The position numbers were made by a program, and so were the translations under genes. The notes below the pieces were generated by a model. The model saw only the letters and a program-made list of their open reading frames with translations. It was not told the DNA's origin and did not search any database. Shown one piece after another: positions 124 to 22,688 of a stretch of DNA of 29,092 nucleotides. Each line of letters starts with the position of its first letter. Position 1 is the stretch's first letter. This stretch comes from a virus. The stretch lies in IMG/VR virus record IMGVR_UViG_3300017714_000108, positions 1-29,092 of that record, one strand, 5' to 3'.

Positions 124-3100
124 CGAAGCACCTAATGACGGTCAACAGTATGCAAGGCAATCGCAAGGTTGGGCGGTTGTTGTTGGTGGTACAGGAACAG
201 TTGAAAGTGTAAACGGACAAACGGGAGTTGTTATACTTGATACTGATAATATTACGGAGGGTACAAATAACTTATATTACACCGAAGCAAGAGTAAGTGC
301 AAACAGTAATGTTGTAGCCAATACCTTAAAGGTAGGAATTACACCTACACAGGCATCAGACATAACTAACAATAATTCAAAGGTAGGTATTACAACGCAG
401 CAAGCAAGCGACATAACAAGCAATAATAATAAAGTTGGTATAACTACTGCACAATCAAACGAAATAGCAGCAAACACGCTTAAAACAGGAATTACACAAT
501 CGCAAGCAGATGATATTACAGCTAATAATTTAAAGGTTACATTTCCCGAAGCACCTAACGACAATAAACAATACGCAAGAAAAAATCAAGCGTGGGCAGA
601 AGTTGTTGCAAGTGGTGGCGATGTTACAAGTGTTAACGGAGAAGTTGGAACAGTAGTTTTAGATACTGACGATATTAATGAGGGTACAAATAATTTATAC
701 TTTACAGATACAAGAGTAACAAATAATACATCGGTTTCTGCAAACACAGCAAAGGTTGGCATTACTACAGCACAGGCTACTGACATAACTACTAATAATG
801 CAAAGGTAGGTTATACAGATGCATTAGTTTCTGCAAATTCTGATGTAGTTGCGAATACAGCAAAGGTTGGTATAACATCAGCGCAAGCCAGTGACATTAC
901 AACTAACAATAATAAGGTTGGCATAACATCGGCACAGGCATCAGATATTACAGCAAACAATGCAAAAACAGGAATAACTACAGCACAGGCAGATGATATT
1001 GTTTTAAATACTGCAAAGGTTGGTATAACGTCAAGTCAAGCAACAGCAATTACTGATAACACAGCAAAAAATTCATACCCTACTGTTGATGCAACTAAAC
1101 TTGCAGGAATAGAAACAGGCGCAGAAGTTAACGATGTTAATAGCGTAAATGGTGCAACAGGTGTCGTTTCTTTAGGATTGCTTGATTTAGATGATGTAGG
1201 TGCAGACGGTGCAAGTGGGCAAGTTTTAACAACAGACGGAAGCGGTGCATTTACTTTTACAACTGTCAGCACAGGTGGAGGTGGTGTTTCAAGTGTAACA
1301 GGATCGGGGACAGTTAGCGGCTTAACATTAACAACAGGGGGTACAGCAGCTAATATAACATTAACATTAGGTGGCACATTAAGTTTAACAAGTGCAAACG
1401 TTACAAGTGCTTTAGGATTTACTCCTTACAGTAACACAAACCCCGACAATTACATTACAGGTATTGATAGCAGCGATGTTACAACAGCTTTAGGTTTTAC
1501 ACCCTATAACGCAACAAACCCTGCAGGTTACATTTCAACATACACCGTTACATCAAGTGACGTTACAACAGCATTAGGCTTTACTCCTTATAATGCTACA
1601 AACCCAGCAGGATATATAACTACATATACTGTAACAAGTGGAGACGTAACAGGTGCATTAGGTTTTACACCTTACAGCAATACAAACCCCGATAATTTTA
1701 TTTCTACATATACAGTAACAAATTCAGATGTAACAAGTGCTTTAGGCTTTACGCCATATAGCAATGCCAACCCAAGCAATTTTACAAGTAATTTAGGAAT
1801 AGTGCAAAGCGTTACAGGAAATGTAGGTGCTTTAGCAATTTCTAACGGAGTTTTAAACGTGCCACCAACAGCAGGTGCGCCTGTCGATAGCGTAAACGGT
1901 GCAACAGGGGTTGTAGTTTTAGATACAGACGATATTGCAGAGGGTACGACCAATAAATATATGGTATTGGGTACATCAGCAGGAACTGCTTTAGCAGGTA
2001 ATACAGATTTATTACAAATTGGTTTAACATCTACTACTGCTCTTGCAGGAAATACAACTACAATTTCTGGATCACAGGCAACAGCAATTACAGATAATAC
2101 AGCAAAGGTAGGTTTTACACAAACTTTAGTTTCTCAAAATACCGATGTTACAAATAACACAACAAAAGTTAGTAACGTACAAAGCGATTGGAATGCAACA
2201 ACTGGTTTAGCTGTAATATTAAATAAGCCAAGCATACCAAGTGCTGCACCTGTTGACAGCGTAAATGGAGAAATCGGAACTGTAGTTTTAGATACATCAG
2301 ATATTGCAGAAAATACTAATTTATATTTCACAAATGCAAGAGTTGCAGCAAATTCAGCAGTTACATTAAATACTGCAAAGGTTTCAATGGTTATAGGTAC
2401 TGCTGCAAATGAAGCAATGGCAGGTAACACTACAACTATTAGTGCGCAACAAATTACAGATATTTCTAATAACAATGACAAAATATCTTTTGATACTACA
2501 TCAAGCAATAAGTTAAATGGTATTGAGGATAATGCAGAAGTAAATGTGCAATCGGATTGGAACGCAACAAGTGGCGATGCTTTAATACTTAACAAACCAA
2601 GCATACCAAGTGCTGCTCCAGTAGATAGTGTTAACAGTTTAACAGGCGCAGTAGTTTTGACAACTGCAAATATAGCAGAAAACACTAATCTTTATTACAC
2701 AGAAGCAAGAGTATCAGGAAATACAAATGTTGCTGATAACACTGCAAAAATATCTTTTGATGCAACATCAAGTGCAAAATTAACAAATATTGAAGCAGGT
2801 GCGCAAGTTAATACAGTTGACAGCGTAAACGGAAATGTAGGTGCTGTAACATTAACTACAAGTAATGTAGCAGAGGGTACTAATAAATATATGGTTTTAG
2901 GTACTACTGCATCAACAGCGTTGGCAGGAGATACTGCATTATTGCAATTAGGTACATCATCAACAACTGCATTAGCAGGAGATACTACAGTTATTAGTGC
3001 GCAACAAGCAACAGATATTAGTAACAACAATAATAAAATATCTTTTGACAGTACATCAAGCACAAAGTTAGGAGGTATTGAAACAGGTGCAGAAGTAAAC

Positions 3101-3226
3101 ACGATTGATAGCATTGTAAGTGGAGAGCCAACAGGAAGCGACCAAGTTATAAACGTAGTTAGTTTAACGCAAGCAGAATATGACGGAGGGACTAAGGTAG
3201 CAACAACATTTTATATAATTACTTAA
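1..3226 (+). CDS. Tail fibre protein, main part (gene begins at 28743)
   Basis: The frame with codons starting at base 2 is open from the window start to the TAA at 3224-3226. Joined to 28743-28969 it makes a protein of about 1150 residues. It is low-complexity and rich in Thr, Ser, Asn, Ala and Gly. It contains many copies of short blocks: about ten units of the type KVGITTAQASDITTNN, several SVNGxxGxVVLDTDDIAEGTN units, and five DVTTALGFTPY units. Such blocks are characteristic of the shafts of phage tail fibres, which form beta-rich trimers. The C-terminus (LTQAEYDGG...TTFYIIT) matches the common fibre ending. It probably acts in host recognition. The next gene starts 1 nt downstream. A TTG at 1178 could be read as a start, but the upstream frame is open and repeats the same blocks, so I treat it as internal. 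The exact repeat number may have collapsed in assembly. Confidence 0.85.
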   Translation, partial: QTGVVVLTSTNIAEGTNLYFTDTRVSANSAVVLNTAKVSFPEAPNDGQQYARQSQGWAVVVGGTGTVESVNGQTGVVILDTDNITEGTNNLYYTEARVSANSNVVANTLKVGITPTQASDITNNNSKVGITTQQASDITSNNNKVGITTAQSNEIAANTLKTGITQSQADDITANNLKVTFPEAPNDNKQYARKNQAWAEVVASGGDVTSVNGEVGTVVLDTDDINEGTNNLYFTDTRVTNNTSVSANTAKVGITTAQATDITTNNAKVGYTDALVSANSDVVANTAKVGITSAQASDITTNNNKVGITSAQASDITANNAKTGITTAQADDIVLNTAKVGITSSQATAITDNTAKNSYPTVDATKLAGIETGAEVNDVNSVNGATGVVSLGLLDLDDVGADGASGQVLTTDGSGAFTFTTVSTGGGGVSSVTGSGTVSGLTLTTGGTAANITLTLGGTLSLTSANVTSALGFTPYSNTNPDNYITGIDSSDVTTALGFTPYNATNPAGYISTYTVTSSDVTTALGFTPYNATNPAGYITTYTVTSGDVTGALGFTPYSNTNPDNFISTYTVTNSDVTSALGFTPYSNANPSNFTSNLGIVQSVTGNVGALAISNGVLNVPPTAGAPVDSVNGATGVVVLDTDDIAEGTTNKYMVLGTSAGTALAGNTDLLQIGLTSTTALAGNTTTISGSQATAITDNTAKVGFTQTLVSQNTDVTNNTTKVSNVQSDWNATTGLAVILNKPSIPSAAPVDSVNGEIGTVVLDTSDIAENTNLYFTNARVAANSAVTLNTAKVSMVIGTAANEAMAGNTTTISAQQITDISNNNDKISFDTTSSNKLNGIEDNAEVNVQSDWNATSGDALILNKPSIPSAAPVDSVNSLTGAVVLTTANIAENTNLYYTEARVSGNTNVADNTAKISFDATSSAKLTNIEAGAQVNTVDSVNGNVGAVTLTTSNVAEGTNKYMVLGTTASTALAGDTALLQLGTSSTTALAGDTTVISAQQATDISNNNNKISFDSTSSTKLGGIETGAEVNTIDSIVSGEPTGSDQVINVVSLTQAEYDGGTKVATTFYIIT
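1397..1790 (+). repeat. In-gene tandem repeat, ALGFTPY units, 84-nt period
   Basis: Five units encoding [DN]VT[TSG]ALGFTPY start at 1397, 1475, 1559, 1643 and 1727, i.e. spacings of 78, 84, 84 and 84 nt (28 residues). Units 2 to 5 are joined by segments such as NPAGYITTYTVTS. They are tail-fibre shaft repeats, diverged at the DNA level, and not a CRISPR array. Confidence 0.8.
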
Positions 3227-11999: not shown

Positions 12000-12359
12000 A
12001 TGGACGAAAGTAGACACATAAAAAAAGAAAGTTTATTAAAAGCATTAGAACAAAGTTTAGGAGTTGTTACAGCAGCATGCAAGAAAGCAAGCATACCAAG
12101 AAGCACATATTATAAATGGCTTAATGAAGATGAAGCATTTGCAAAACAAGTTAGGGATATTGAAAATGTTGCATTAGATTTTGCAGAAACCCAGTTACAC
12201 AAACAAATATCTGAAAATTCAACAGCAGCAACAATATTCTATTTAAAAACTAAAGGTAAAAAAAGAGGTTATATAGAACGTCAAGAAATTACAGGAGCAG
12301 ACGGAATACCTAATAATTTTCAAATCGAAATAATTGGCTCAAAGAAAAATAAAGACTAA
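12000..12359 (+). CDS. terS: Terminase small subunit
   Basis: A 119-residue protein directly upstream of the large subunit. Residues about 10-41 form a helix-turn-helix: KESLLKALEQSLGVVTAAC, then KKASIPRSTYYKWLNED, the DNA-reading part that selects viral DNA for packaging. The central part (VRDIENVALDFAETQLHKQI, ending YLKTKGKKRGYIERQE) is the oligomerisation and ATPase-contact region seen in related phage small terminases, including the common TKGKKRGY motif. TerS rings recognise the packaging site and hand DNA to TerL. The 3' end overlaps the terL start by 26 nt. Confidence 0.8.
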   Translation: MDESRHIKKESLLKALEQSLGVVTAACKKASIPRSTYYKWLNEDEAFAKQVRDIENVALDFAETQLHKQISENSTAATIFYLKTKGKKRGYIERQEITGADGIPNNFQIEIIGSKKNKD

Positions 12360-13494
12360 CGTTGTCTATGATCATTTACTAATATCTCCCAAAAAAATTA
12401 TAGTTGAACAAGGCGGTACAAGGTCGGGTAAAACTTATAATATTATATTATGGATCATATTTAACTACTGCACAAATAACACTAATAAAGTTATTACAAT
12501 ATGTCGCAAATCATTTCCAAGTTTACGTGCAACTGTAATGCGTGACTTTATTAATATATTAGATATACATAAAATATACAAAGAAATACATCATAATAAG
12601 TCAAATTCAGAATATACCCTATTTGGCAATTTAGTCGAATTTATATCTTTAGACCAACCCCAAAAGATTAGGGGACGTAAAAGAGACTTGCTATTTGTTA
12701 ACGAGGGTAACGAGTTGTATTATGAAGATATGCAACAATTATTATTTAGAACGCAAGAAAAAATTATACTTGATTTTAACCCGTCAGACGAGTACCATTG
12801 GATATATGACAAATTGATACCAAGATTAGATTGCGATTTTTACAAAACAACATATTTAGACAACCCATTTATTGAAGATAGTATTGTTAAGGAAATAGAG
12901 CTATTAAAAGAAACTGACGAGCAGTATTGGCAAATATACGGTTTAGGCGAAAGAGCAGCCAGCAGGAGTACAATATTTAATTATGTTGAGGTTAACAAAA
13001 TACCAACAACAGCAAAATTAGTTAGCTATGGCATGGACTTTGGATATTCTAACGATCCGAGTGTTTTAGCTTCTGTTTATACAGAAAATAATAACCTGTA
13101 TATAAAAGAACATTTGTATCGAACTAAAATGACTACAAATGATATTAATCAGTTTTTAAAAGAAGAAAACATTATTGGCACTATATACGCAGACAGTGCA
13201 GAGCCAAGATTAATCGAAGAACTTAAAAGAATGGGACATAAAATATTTCCAAGTATAAAAGGCAGGGACAGTATTAATGCAGGGATTGATTTATTAAAAC
13301 GTTACAAAATACACGTGCTTAACACATCAACAAATGCAATATCAGAATTTAGAAATTATAAATGGAAAATGGACAAAACAGGCATGTTAACAAATACACC
13401 CGAAGACAAACACAATCATATAATTGATAGCTGCAGGTATGCGACATATTCTATTTTAAGCCGACCTAACTTTGGCAAGTACGCATTACATTAA
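12334..13494 (+). CDS. terL: Terminase large subunit (ATPase-nuclease)
   Basis: A 386-residue packaging motor. ATPase part: Walker A GGTRSGKT (27-34), Walker B LLFVNEGNE (119-126) and the coupling motif LDFNPSDEYHW (146-156). Nuclease part: YGMDFGYSNDPS with D235, IYADSAEPR with D287, and HIIDSCRYA with D365, the three metal-binding acids of the RNase H-like fold. It pumps DNA into proheads and cuts it. There is no ATG before the P-loop in this frame, so TTG 12334 is the best start: the residues KIKTNVVYDHLL that follow look like the family N-terminus. The gene overlaps terS by 26 nt, in another frame. Family and motifs are secure; only the start is uncertain. Confidence 0.9.
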   Translation: MAQRKIKTNVVYDHLLISPKKIIVEQGGTRSGKTYNIILWIIFNYCTNNTNKVITICRKSFPSLRATVMRDFINILDIHKIYKEIHHNKSNSEYTLFGNLVEFISLDQPQKIRGRKRDLLFVNEGNELYYEDMQQLLFRTQEKIILDFNPSDEYHWIYDKLIPRLDCDFYKTTYLDNPFIEDSIVKEIELLKETDEQYWQIYGLGERAASRSTIFNYVEVNKIPTTAKLVSYGMDFGYSNDPSVLASVYTENNNLYIKEHLYRTKMTTNDINQFLKEENIIGTIYADSAEPRLIEELKRMGHKIFPSIKGRDSINAGIDLLKRYKIHVLNTSTNAISEFRNYKWKMDKTGMLTNTPEDKHNHIIDSCRYATYSILSRPNFGKYALH

Positions 13495-13495
13495 A

Positions 13496-13538
13496 AGTTA
13501 TTAATAATTTTGTTTATAACTAAAATTGTTGTATATTG
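13496..13538 (+). promoter_or_regulatory. Early promoter with inverted-repeat operator (copy 2)
   Basis: AGTTAT (13496-13501) and ATAACT (13516-13521) flank 14 nt and enclose TTATTAA-N6-TGTTTATA, as at 10309. TATATTG at 13532-13538 serves as the -7 box. It lies immediately after terL and upstream of the structured region 13545-13740. Confidence 0.65.
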
Positions 13539-13544
13539 CAGTAT

Positions 13545-13740
13545 AATTAAATAAGTTCTTTGAAATATTGGTTGAATTGAGATAGTATAAAGATATAGGT
13601 AAAGTATTTTAATATGGAAAGCGAGCAGAAACCGACTTAATGTAGATGATTTCTTATTAGGCAGACTGGCGGCTTGTAATAGCAATTAAAAGAAATTAGG
13701 ATATGTAATGATTATCGAAGCAACCAATATTTCAAATTAT
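13545..13740 (+). ncRNA. Candidate structured RNA or structured leader
   Basis: A non-coding stretch between terL and the gene at 13768. TTTGAAATATTGGTTG (13559-13574) is perfectly complementary to CAACCAATATTTCAAA (13721-13736), so the RNA would be closed by a 16-bp helix around 146 nt. Just inside, GATAGT (13581-13586) can pair with ATTATC (13711-13716) across small internal loops. Further in, GCGAGC (13621-13626) can pair with GCTTGT (13672-13677), and AGAAA (13627-13631) with TTTCT (13650-13654). The centre is distinctly richer in G and C than the genome, and only ORFs of 8-13 codons occur. Two of the helices use G-U pairs that work only for the + strand. GTTCTTTGAAA at 13555-13565 resembles the boxA antitermination element. 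The promoter at 13496 would start transcription near 13545. It may be a free RNA or the 5' leader of the operon at 13768. I recognise no known RNA family. Confidence 0.5.
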
Positions 13741-13767
13741 ATTTTAATAATTTAAAAACAAAACAAA

Positions 13768-13884
13768 ATGAGCAATAGTGCAATAATAAGAATAGCATGT
13801 AATTTATACCCTAATAAAAATTTATGGGATCTTACAAAAGAACAAATGAATAAGGTAATGGATATTTATAACGACTATTACTAA
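13768..13884 (+). CDS. Very small hypothetical protein, 38 aa
   Basis: From ATG 13768 to TAA 13882-13884, with the same A-rich leader as the gene at 6972. The sequence starts MSNSAIIRIACNLYPNKNLW and ends with a helix (TKEQMNKVMDIYNDYY). It is the first of four tiny genes joined by stop/start overlaps (TAATG, then ATGA), so they form one translational unit behind the structured leader. No known family; the aromatic-rich acidic end is notable. Confidence 0.5.
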   Translation: MSNSAIIRIACNLYPNKNLWDLTKEQMNKVMDIYNDYY

Positions 13885-14039
13885 TGGCAACAGAATTGAC
13901 AGAAATAAACATGCAACTAAAAACTTATTTATATTCTAATAATCAAGAACAAATTGATTATGCAGAAATATATTTAAGAAACGTACATAGAAAATATGGA
14001 ACGGTGGACACAAAAATAATTAAAAGCATAATAAGATGA
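13884..14039 (+). CDS. Very small helical protein, 51 aa
   Basis: From ATG 13884, sharing one base with the previous stop, to TGA 14037-14039. It reads MATELTEINMQLKTYLYSNN, then NQEQIDYAEIYLRNVHRKYG and VDTKIIKSIIR, and is mostly helical with a basic C-terminus. There is no cysteine, signal or membrane segment. Overlap with the next ATG (ATGA) implies coupled translation. Function unknown; by context it belongs to a set of small, probably early, host-directed proteins. Confidence 0.45.
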   Translation: MATELTEINMQLKTYLYSNNQEQIDYAEIYLRNVHRKYGTVDTKIIKSIIR

Positions 14040-14167
14040 AAACAAACAAACCAAGTAATGCTGAAAAAGCAGCAAAGATTTTTAAGAAGTTAACAAAGTA
14101 TTTTTTAATATTCGCATTATGCTACTTTGTAGGTAGGACATTAGCATCAATACTTTTTAATATATGA
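14036..14167 (+). CDS. Small single-span membrane protein, 43 aa
   Basis: From ATG 14036 to TGA 14165-14167. The first 20 residues are basic and helical (NAEKAAKIFKKLTK) and are followed by one hydrophobic span, YFLIFALCYFVGRTLASILF. This gives an N-in, C-out single-pass inner-membrane protein by the positive-inside rule. It is far from the lysis cassette and is encoded with other tiny proteins behind an early-type promoter, so a role in altering the host membrane or excluding other phages is possible, but there is no direct evidence. Confidence 0.5.
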   Translation: MKTNKPSNAEKAAKIFKKLTKYFLIFALCYFVGRTLASILFNI

Positions 14168-14289
14168 GTTGGGACGATTTTTTAAACCCCCACGAACAAT
14201 TTGAATACCATTGCTGCGAATGTGGATCTAAAATGCAAACAGACAAAGGGGTATGCAGTGGGACTTGTCATGAAGCAAGTTTAATTTAG
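14164..14289 (+). CDS. Small zinc-ribbon-like protein, 41 aa
   Basis: From ATG 14164, overlapping the previous TGA, to TAG 14287-14289. It begins MSWDDFLNPHEQFEYHCCEC and continues GSKMQTDKGVCSGTCHE. Cysteines C17, C18 and C20 plus C31 and C35, with H16 and H36 nearby, could bind one zinc ion as a minimal ribbon. Such tiny zinc proteins often contact nucleic acid or host polymerase. It is the last gene before a strong terminator, closing the four-gene set. Confidence 0.55.
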   Translation: MSWDDFLNPHEQFEYHCCECGSKMQTDKGVCSGTCHEASLI

Positions 14290-14316
14290 TAGTTAGTTTT
14301 TTTTATGAAAGGATAG

Positions 14317-14343
14317 GCAGTCAGAAATGGCTGCTTTTTTTTT
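14317..14343 (+). terminator. Rho-independent terminator with GAAA loop
   Basis: GCAGTCA (14317-14323) pairs with TGGCTGC (14328-14334), with one G-U, around a GAAA loop. A run of nine T follows. It separates the tiny early-type genes from the tail operon. Confidence 0.85.
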
Positions 14344-21260: not shown

Positions 21261-21869
21261 ATGAAAATAATAGAGCTTATTTTAGATGAAGATCAAGAAG
21301 AAACAGGAGTCGAAGCAATATCTATTGTTGAAAGTCCTGCTATTGAAAGCGACTTTATTGCTTTAAAAGACCAAGAAATAAAATTAGCGAAAGTTGATGA
21401 AGACAAAAAAATCTTAATGGGTGCATTGTTAATACCTAATAAACCTATTTACAGAAATGGTGCAGAGGGCGAATATTATATTTATTTTTCAAAAGATACA
21501 GTACAAAAAGCATCACAGTTATATTTACAAAATGGTTATCAGCACAATAGTACATTAGAGCATCAGCAAACGTTACAAGGCTTAACATTAGTTGAAAGTT
21601 GGATTGTTGAAGATGAATTACAGGATAAAACAAGAAAATACGGACTTAATGTGCCTGTTGGCAGTTGGGTTGGATCAGTAAAAGTTAATAATGATGAAAT
21701 ATGGCAGGAGTATGTTAAAACAAATAAAGTTAAAGGTTTTTCTATTGAGGGGTATTTTGCTGACAAAATGGAAGCACCTAAGGACAAAATTAAAGAGGAA
21801 TATTCAAAAAATAAAAGTGCTGAAAAGACATTAAATAAAATCATAAATATATTGACCAATGAAAAATAA
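21261..21869 (+). CDS. Prohead protease, XkdF-like
   Basis: A 202-residue protein with the pattern of the XkdF-like (Peptidase S78-related) prohead proteases. After an acidic N-terminus (LILDEDQEETGVEAISIVES) come ILMGALLIPNKPIYR, GEYYIYFSKDTVQKASQLYL, STLEHQQTLQGLTLVESWIV with H101, and VPVGSWVGSVKVNNDEIWQE ending VKGFSIEGYF. These elements in this order define the family. It would cut scaffold and capsid proteins during head maturation. The last 15 residues (AEKTLNKIINIL) resemble the scaffold's C-terminus and the N-terminal tag of the next three proteins, perhaps a shared signal for entry to the prohead. It overlaps the next gene by 11 nt. Confidence 0.8.
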   Translation: MKIIELILDEDQEETGVEAISIVESPAIESDFIALKDQEIKLAKVDEDKKILMGALLIPNKPIYRNGAEGEYYIYFSKDTVQKASQLYLQNGYQHNSTLEHQQTLQGLTLVESWIVEDELQDKTRKYGLNVPVGSWVGSVKVNNDEIWQEYVKTNKVKGFSIEGYFADKMEAPKDKIKEEYSKNKSAEKTLNKIINILTNEK

Positions 21870-21936
21870 TATTGAAAAAGTTTACGGTAAACTACCAAAG
21901 AAAAAATTAGGTTTAAAAAAGCATAAAATTGATTTA
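21859..21936 (+). repeat. Duplicated 5' tag, copy 1 (copy 2 at 22239-22316)
   Basis: The first 78 nt of paralogues 1 and 2 encode identical 26-residue tags. Only four synonymous third-base changes occur, all in the first ten codons. The next 48 nt (21889-21936 and 22269-22316) are identical at DNA level, whereas the bodies that follow are not alignable at DNA level by eye. Confidence 0.85.
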
Positions 21937-22239
21937 AATCTTGCTGATGATTTGATGCAAAAAAGCGATGATCTTTCTACATTATTTAGTTTTGCAGAAG
22001 ATGACAACGATTTTTTAGGGGGTGCAGTACAAAGAATTTTAATGATTGATACAGAATTAATTGATAATAAAAGATTAATAGAAGAATTTCAAGAAGAATA
22101 TTTTAAATTTTTAGATTTAGCAAATGAATTAGGAGTTGAAATACCTAATGAAATATTTAATGGTTTAGCAATATCTGAACAATTATCAAGATTAACTGAT
22201 GACATGACATTTAAAATAAATTCTATAAAAAATAAATAA
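21859..22239 (+). CDS. Tagged helical protein, paralogue 1 (126 aa)
   Basis: First of three tandem relatives. Residues 1-26 (KNNIEKVYGKLPKKKLGLKK, then HKIDL) are identical to those of paralogue 2; after that the sequences diverge. The body is acidic and helical (DLMQKSDDLSTLFSFAEDDN, IEEFQEEYFKFLDLANELGV) with ANELGVEIP as a shared turn in the middle of a probable helical hairpin. It lies right after the prohead protease and before the scaffold and capsid genes. A conserved basic tag with a variable body in this place recalls T4 internal head proteins, whose N-terminal capsid-targeting tag is removed by the prohead protease. That role is my inference; no family is recognised. Confidence 0.65.
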   Translation: MKNNIEKVYGKLPKKKLGLKKHKIDLNLADDLMQKSDDLSTLFSFAEDDNDFLGGAVQRILMIDTELIDNKRLIEEFQEEYFKFLDLANELGVEIPNEIFNGLAISEQLSRLTDDMTFKINSIKNK

Positions 22240-22688
22240 TGAAAAATAACATAGAAAAGGTTTACGGAAAACTACCAAAGAAAAAATTAGGTTTAAAAAA
22301 GCATAAAATTGATTTAGCAGTTGGTAATGAATTAAGTTCATTAGAAGAACAAGTTGTATCATTATCACAAAAATTCGATGATAATGTTGGTCTTGCTTAT
22401 GATCCTTTAAGACAAGTTGAAAAAATAGTAGAAGAATTACCAGATGAAATAAATGGTTTTCAAGAATTTCTTAACGCATTACAACAATTAGAAGAACAGT
22501 ATTTAAAAGATGAACAAAAAGTTAGAGATTTTGAAAATGAATTAGGTGTAAAAATTGATAGACCAGAAGCATTAAATGTAGCATTAAAAACACTTGAATT
22601 ATATCAAAATCTTGAAGAAATAGGTAGACAAAGTATTAATGAATATCAAGAATACGCAAATCAATTAAGAGGGTTTAGAGTAGTTTAA
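22239..22688 (+). CDS. Tagged helical protein, paralogue 2 (149 aa)
   Basis: Second relative. It starts at ATG 22239, overlapping the previous stop by one base. The tag is residues 1-26, identical to paralogue 1. The body has two long acidic helices (SSLEEQVVSLSQKFDDNVGL, NALQQLEEQYLKDEQKVRDF) joined at ENELGVKIDRPEALN, then a further helix (KTLELYQNLEEIGRQSINEY). There is no membrane segment or catalytic pattern. The N-terminal tag is basic (KLPKKKLGLKKHK) and the rest acidic, which gives a strongly split charge. Like its neighbours it is a candidate prohead-internal protein; a structural role as a minor head subunit is the main alternative. Confidence 0.65.
   Translation: MKNNIEKVYGKLPKKKLGLKKHKIDLAVGNELSSLEEQVVSLSQKFDDNVGLAYDPLRQVEKIVEELPDEINGFQEFLNALQQLEEQYLKDEQKVRDFENELGVKIDRPEALNVALKTLELYQNLEEIGRQSINEYQEYANQLRGFRVV

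Follow-up and report, generated by a model that had tools for sequence, protein, structure and literature searches.

The window, by which we mean the whole viral stretch of 29,092 nucleotides that was analysed, carries directly behind its terminase large subunit gene a noncoding segment with a promoter in front of it and a run of very small genes after it. The features of this locus are the following.

12334..13494, + strand: terminase large subunit gene (terL), the upstream neighbour (PHROG matches)
13510..13538, + strand: putative Bacteroidetes-type promoter (TTG at 13510-13512, 19 nt, TATATTG at 13532-13538; from the sequence)
13553..13740, + strand: conserved structured RNA, family A (covariance model R1; 183.3 bits, covariation)
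13553..13569, + strand: boxA-like motif AAGTTCTTTGAAATATT, whose 3' part opens the closing helix (motif match, host 16S leader counterpart)
13559..13574, + strand: 5' arm of the closing (leader-trailer-like) helix (16 bp; fold and shuffles)
13721..13736, + strand: 3' arm of the closing helix (16 bp; fold and shuffles)
13768..13884, + strand: 38-aa ORF, the nearest of the small ORFs downstream of the RNA, also found in L202, which has no RNA
13884..14289, + strand: three more small ORFs of 51, 43 and 41 aa (no family match)
14315..14336, + strand: intrinsic-terminator-like hairpin at the end of the small-gene unit (terminator-like site prediction)

The promoter was assigned from its TTG and TATATTG elements, which we take to represent the Bacteroidetes-type consensus. 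A good promoter had been claimed here in an earlier note made from the sequence of the window, and one is present, of the Bacteroidetes type and not of the sigma-70 type; the promoter search listed no sigma-70 site at 13510-13538. The four tiny genes that had been reported after the RNA correspond to the four ORFs listed above. For comparison, 151 loci with a TerL end (window included) were used, 10 of which were too short downstream, leaving 141 usable loci and 116 distinct sequences; the Bacteroidetes-type promoter pattern was found downstream of terL in 102 of these 116. Behind terL, 80 related loci mostly have a promoter-like element and then small coding genes. Only two TerL matches were found in bacterial genome contigs, in a Flavobacteriaceae MAG and a Winogradskyella MAG (69-70% identity), and the host is therefore probably a marine flavobacterium.

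Two other features of the window may be mentioned. Positions 1178-3226 hold a repetitive ORF of 682 aa with recurring blocks, e.g. SDVTTALGFTPYNATNPAGYI and DSVNGATGVVVLDT, perhaps encoding a tail-fibre-like protein. Two ORFs of 126 and 149 aa that follow each other at 21859-22688 begin with the identical peptide MKNNIEKVYGKLPKKKLGLKKHKIDL, and a third (22710) starts similarly, which suggests duplication of an N-terminal module.

The long-range helix proposed in the earlier note could be reproduced in both coordinates and complementarity: TTTGAAATATTGGTTG at 13559-13574 and CAACCAATATTTCAAA at 13721-13736 pair over 16 bp with 0 mismatches across a spacer of 146 nt. The predicted fold of 13545-13750 has a z-score of -3.44, with one of 200 dinucleotide shuffles equally good, and that of 13559-13736 a z-score of -4.74, with none of 100 shuffles equally good. 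When the 5' arm was allowed to pair anywhere in the 420 nt downstream, its pairing was equalled in none of 200 shuffles.

Relatives were retrieved by a promoter plus boxA scan and an interior-pattern scan of viral contigs. The resulting RNA family, named family A, comprises at least the window, L351, L383 (with its near-copy L390) and L377, as judged by nhmmer; further pattern scans of viral contigs and nhmmer gave no extra members among the matches listed. On the + strand, model R1 scored the five members at 216.9, 211.2, 211.2, 183.3 (the window) and 171.1 bits, whereas the best score on the - strand was 28.8 bits over all members and 12.3 bits in the window, in agreement with the + strand orientation that had been deduced from G-U pairs. 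Across the four distinct sequences, 8 of 48 base pairs are changed on both sides, a number reached in none of 500 shuffles and compared with 0-3 in slid controls, and 95.8% of the pair cells are standard, as high as in none of 500 shuffles; these counts come from three lineages only, with the structure derived from the same sequences as tested. The candidate structured RNA is thus backed by covariation among homologues. The closing helix itself is nearly invariant within the family, and the interior is conserved well past boxA.

The internal pairings that had been suggested fared differently. GATAGT/ATTATC corresponds to helix 2 of the model and is supported, its register in L377 being ambiguous by one base. 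For GCGAGC/GCTTGT, four of the six base pairs belong to the consensus, one of them changed on both sides, and the other two do not. The pairing of AGAAA with TTTCT was not upheld, L377 having TTTCT without AGAAA. Two further conserved helices had not been listed: one at about 13591-13596/13701-13706, with changes on both sides, and one at 13608-13616/13683-13690.

In line with the earlier note, no Rfam family matches the RNA: none reached the cut-off anywhere in the window and none appeared at E 10 in 13350-13900, and homologues gave nothing beyond chance-level hits and the boxA stretch of the DUF2693 RNA. ARAGORN found no tRNA or tmRNA, and blastn against GenBank phages gave short partial matches only. 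In bacterial genomes there were 0 pattern matches, and model R1, applied with stricter filters, found the RNA in 0 of 397. Elsewhere in the window, exact complementarity to the RNA extends over at most 12 nt (10-15 in shuffles), and in the host rrn operon over 9 nt, in neither case above chance. A conserved peptide within the RNA was also considered, L351 having an ORF of 28 codons, and was rejected because the same ATG in the window (13614) is followed by a stop after 8 codons and is missing in L377. Neither this RNA nor any boxA leader of a Bacteroidetes phage RNA was the subject of a paper listed in a literature search, which had most subscription papers outside its coverage. Family A is a phage RNA family without an Rfam entry and with a pre-rRNA-like layout.

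The RNA behaves as an accessory cassette, present or absent as a unit. In L202, which is 96.7-97.3% identical to the window on both flanks, it is precisely absent. In L351 and L383, as well as in L204, L210 and L300, a boxA-led RNA lies behind a TerL only 28-35% identical to that of the window. The RNA of L377 lies away from terL (no TerL match within 7.4 kb), between long opposite-strand ORFs, one of which ends like the window tape-measure protein, and is antisense to the structural genes. The first gene behind the RNA also differs between the window, L351/L383 and L377; in each family A member examined, an ORF starts 26-42 nt downstream of the helix. No boxA was found within 320 nt upstream of the first-gene homologues of the window (L202, L203, L012, L217, L002, L008) or of L351/L383 (L024, L043, L060, L071); another first-gene homologue, in L325, has a different boxA-led RNA farther upstream.

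The earlier note had overlooked the boxA and therefore missed the likeness to an rRNA precursor. In the window this motif differs by one base from the consensus used and, as in boxA-dependent (rrn-type) units, lies close behind the promoter. In 7 of 30 loci from flavobacterial genomes, the 16S 5' motif is preceded at 113-129 nt by a closely similar sequence, AAGTTCATTAACATATTG or one base off; many of the remaining 23 loci end too early or are other sites. The phage motif is a putative boxA by resemblance, and has GTTCTTT at the place of GTTCATT in the host boxA. In the one host operon that was read (L547), ATTGAATTGACAGC immediately after boxA pairs with GCTGTTAATTTAAT in the 16S trailer. The phage RNA helices start in boxA or at its end, which in this one genome is also the start point of the host pre-16S helix. 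The passages of PMC10250234 on E. coli describe boxA as necessary and sufficient to recruit antitermination factors, and the rRNA flanks as forming leader-trailer helices with an RNase III site within the helix. Unlike in E. coli, the 3' half of the phage boxA lies under the closing helix.

Nine boxA matches with up to two mismatches on either strand were found in the 151 loci. Five of them lie 50-268 nt behind terL on the terL strand (window, L007, L023, L204 and L210), and the interiors that follow differ; in L007 and L023, the motif AAGTnCTTTnACATATT is followed by a long noncoding stretch. Among 189 distinct motif sites in viral contigs, 60 are preceded by a promoter-like element at a distance of up to 60 nt; 52 of these 60 sites lie outside long open frames, compared with 58 of the 129 without such an element. 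At 28 of the 189 sites, ARAGORN placed a tRNA or tmRNA no more than 400 nt away. A boxA match with up to three mismatches lies 401-491 nt upstream of all 12 GOLLD 3' domains (Rfam), and in six of nine cases in viral contigs the tmRNA starts at the base right after the boxA match. Because most of these loci had been retrieved with the motif itself, they give no unbiased rate for the association of boxA with noncoding RNAs; five cases have a motif variant outside the fetch patterns (GOLLD in L153, L294 and L329; tmRNA in L288 and L346).

The closing helix was then assessed at 16 sites by comparing the pairing of the 5' arm with 200 shuffles each. The number of shuffles pairing as well was 0 for the window and L377, 1 for L383 and L375, 2 for L007 and L204, 3 for L210 and 5 for L300; it was 13 for L327, 35 for L023, 54 for L304, 73 for L309, 90 for L370, 165 for L313, 171 for L363 and 197 for L284. 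A closing helix is therefore clear in family A, in three other kinds of RNA that differ in sequence (L007, L204/L300 and L210) and in L375, and was not found above chance in L370, L023, L327, L313, L284, L363, L304 and L309.

Several other boxA-led noncoding RNAs were noted during the analysis. One, of ~340-360 nt, occurs with similar interior blocks in L007 (4234-4575) and on the minus strand of L370 (~7347-6985), behind terL in the former and ~5 kb before terL in the latter; it has no Rfam match. Another, of ~300 nt, is found in L023 (3688-3985), L325 (839 on) and, on the minus strand, L327 and L375, blocks such as GGCAATTCACTCA and GAAATGAAATCGTATG being common to these copies; no Rfam match was obtained for L023 and L375. 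Behind a different TerL lie the RNAs of L204 (2088-2325) and L300 (5223 on), of ~230 nt, and that of L210 (1958-2130), of ~155 nt, and the closing helices of all three exceed the shuffles. Just behind the post-terL promoter, short noncoding inserts that lack a boxA fold above shuffles in L077 (z -2.4) and L271 (z -3.3); the insert that L056/L044 have there, small and structured-looking, does not. The Rfam consensus of the DUF2693 RNA (RF02956) opens with a boxA-like stretch, as seen against L351 779-831, and the DUF2693 RNA may therefore be another boxA-led RNA.

On balance, we think it somewhat probable that the locus encodes an accessory free noncoding RNA that is made by rRNA-type antitermination, probably cut at its closing stem, and active in trans. 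Transcription would start at the Bacteroidetes-type promoter behind terL, and the nascent RNA would expose a host-like boxA that should recruit NusB/S10 and the rRNA-type antitermination complex, allowing the modified RNA polymerase to cross the untranslated segment without Rho termination. The emerging 3' arm would pair with the sequence beginning inside boxA, giving a leader-trailer helix of 16 bp like that of pre-16S rRNA. RNase III, a double-strand endonuclease, would then probably cut this helix and free an RNA of ~180 nt (~165-190 nt) from the small-gene mRNA, and the freed RNA would act in trans. Of the three functions that had been offered earlier, the free regulatory RNA remains the best reading, and the packaging RNA and the gene-specific leader are disfavoured.

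The lambda nut and HK022 put sites are comparable cis-acting antitermination sites, and the boxA and the RNA could likewise modify RNA polymerase in cis, so that it would pass the small genes and the terminator behind them and reach the structural genes. The boxA directly behind the promoter and the terminator-like hairpin that separates the RNA from the next structural gene fit such a role; however, the same promoter and gene order occur without boxA in most relatives (boxA is there in 5 of 151), including the ~97% identical L202, the L377 cassette points against the structural genes, and the interior is conserved far past boxA. We regard this explanation as rather unlikely. A structured leader or riboswitch-like element for the first small gene would agree with the start of an ORF shortly after the helix (26-42 nt) throughout the family A members examined, and yet seems improbable: there is no constant downstream gene family and no Rfam riboswitch match, and a gene-specific leader is disfavoured because the first genes differ and two of them have homologues without the RNA. 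Very unlikely, in our view, is a boxA decoy that titrates NusB/S10 off the host rRNA operons; boxA is indeed the element common to the different RNAs at the post-terL site, but its 3' half is covered by the closing helix in the folded RNA and the conserved interior would be superfluous. A packaging RNA like the phi29 pRNA, acting with the adjacent terminase, would suit the position beside terL, the end-to-end helix and the similar size, but is hardly credible because the RNA is absent from L202, is kept unchanged beside TerL proteins of 28-35% identity and lies away from terL in L377, and it has no Rfam match.

Beyond the accessory RNA acting in trans, we tentatively propose that Bacteroidetes phages may express noncoding RNAs in general by the host rRNA route, with boxA antitermination and a leader-trailer helix, and that the post-terL slot may be an exchange site for unrelated accessory RNAs built in this way, although we would not count on this wider proposal being correct. 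If it were, these RNAs would be the RNA counterpart of moron genes, possibly serving host takeover or counter-defence, and those behind terL, if exchanged like accessory genes, would be candidates for such functions. The suggested rule that a host-like boxA marks the starts of noncoding transcripts in Bacteroidetes phages (tRNAs, tmRNA, GOLLD and other RNAs) could serve to find more phage RNAs, and it points to phages borrowing both antitermination and processing from the rRNA pathway. Family A also adds a phage RNA family absent from Rfam.

The window RNA can be compared with several known systems. It shares with GOLLD (RF02032) and ROOL that they are phage noncoding RNAs, and GOLLD is boxA-led in Bacteroidetes-type phage contigs, but it matches neither model, has about a quarter of the GOLLD length and lies behind terL, not among tRNAs; a passage of PMC12286853 describes the function of GOLLD as unknown. 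The DUF2693 RNA has the boxA-like start in common, whereas none of 12 phage records reaches its cut-off of 81.3 bits and only the boxA part aligns (L351 scores 12.2 bits, from boxA alone). The phi29 prohead RNA is likewise phage-encoded, of similar size and paired end to end, but the window RNA has no Rfam match and no single terminase partner, and is absent from a near-identical phage. As in lambda nut and HK022 put, an RNA element near the promoter may modify RNA polymerase, but the window RNA has a much larger conserved interior, an end-to-end helix and an accessory distribution. A tRNA or tmRNA identity was indicated by neither ARAGORN nor Rfam. The pre-16S rRNA unit differs in that the phage RNA encloses ~150 nt without rRNA similarity, has a helix that reaches into boxA, and is phage-borne and accessory; the two have in common a promoter, a boxA and a helix that runs from the end of boxA and pairs with the 3' flank, the flanks around the presumed mature phage RNA being complementary over 16 bp.
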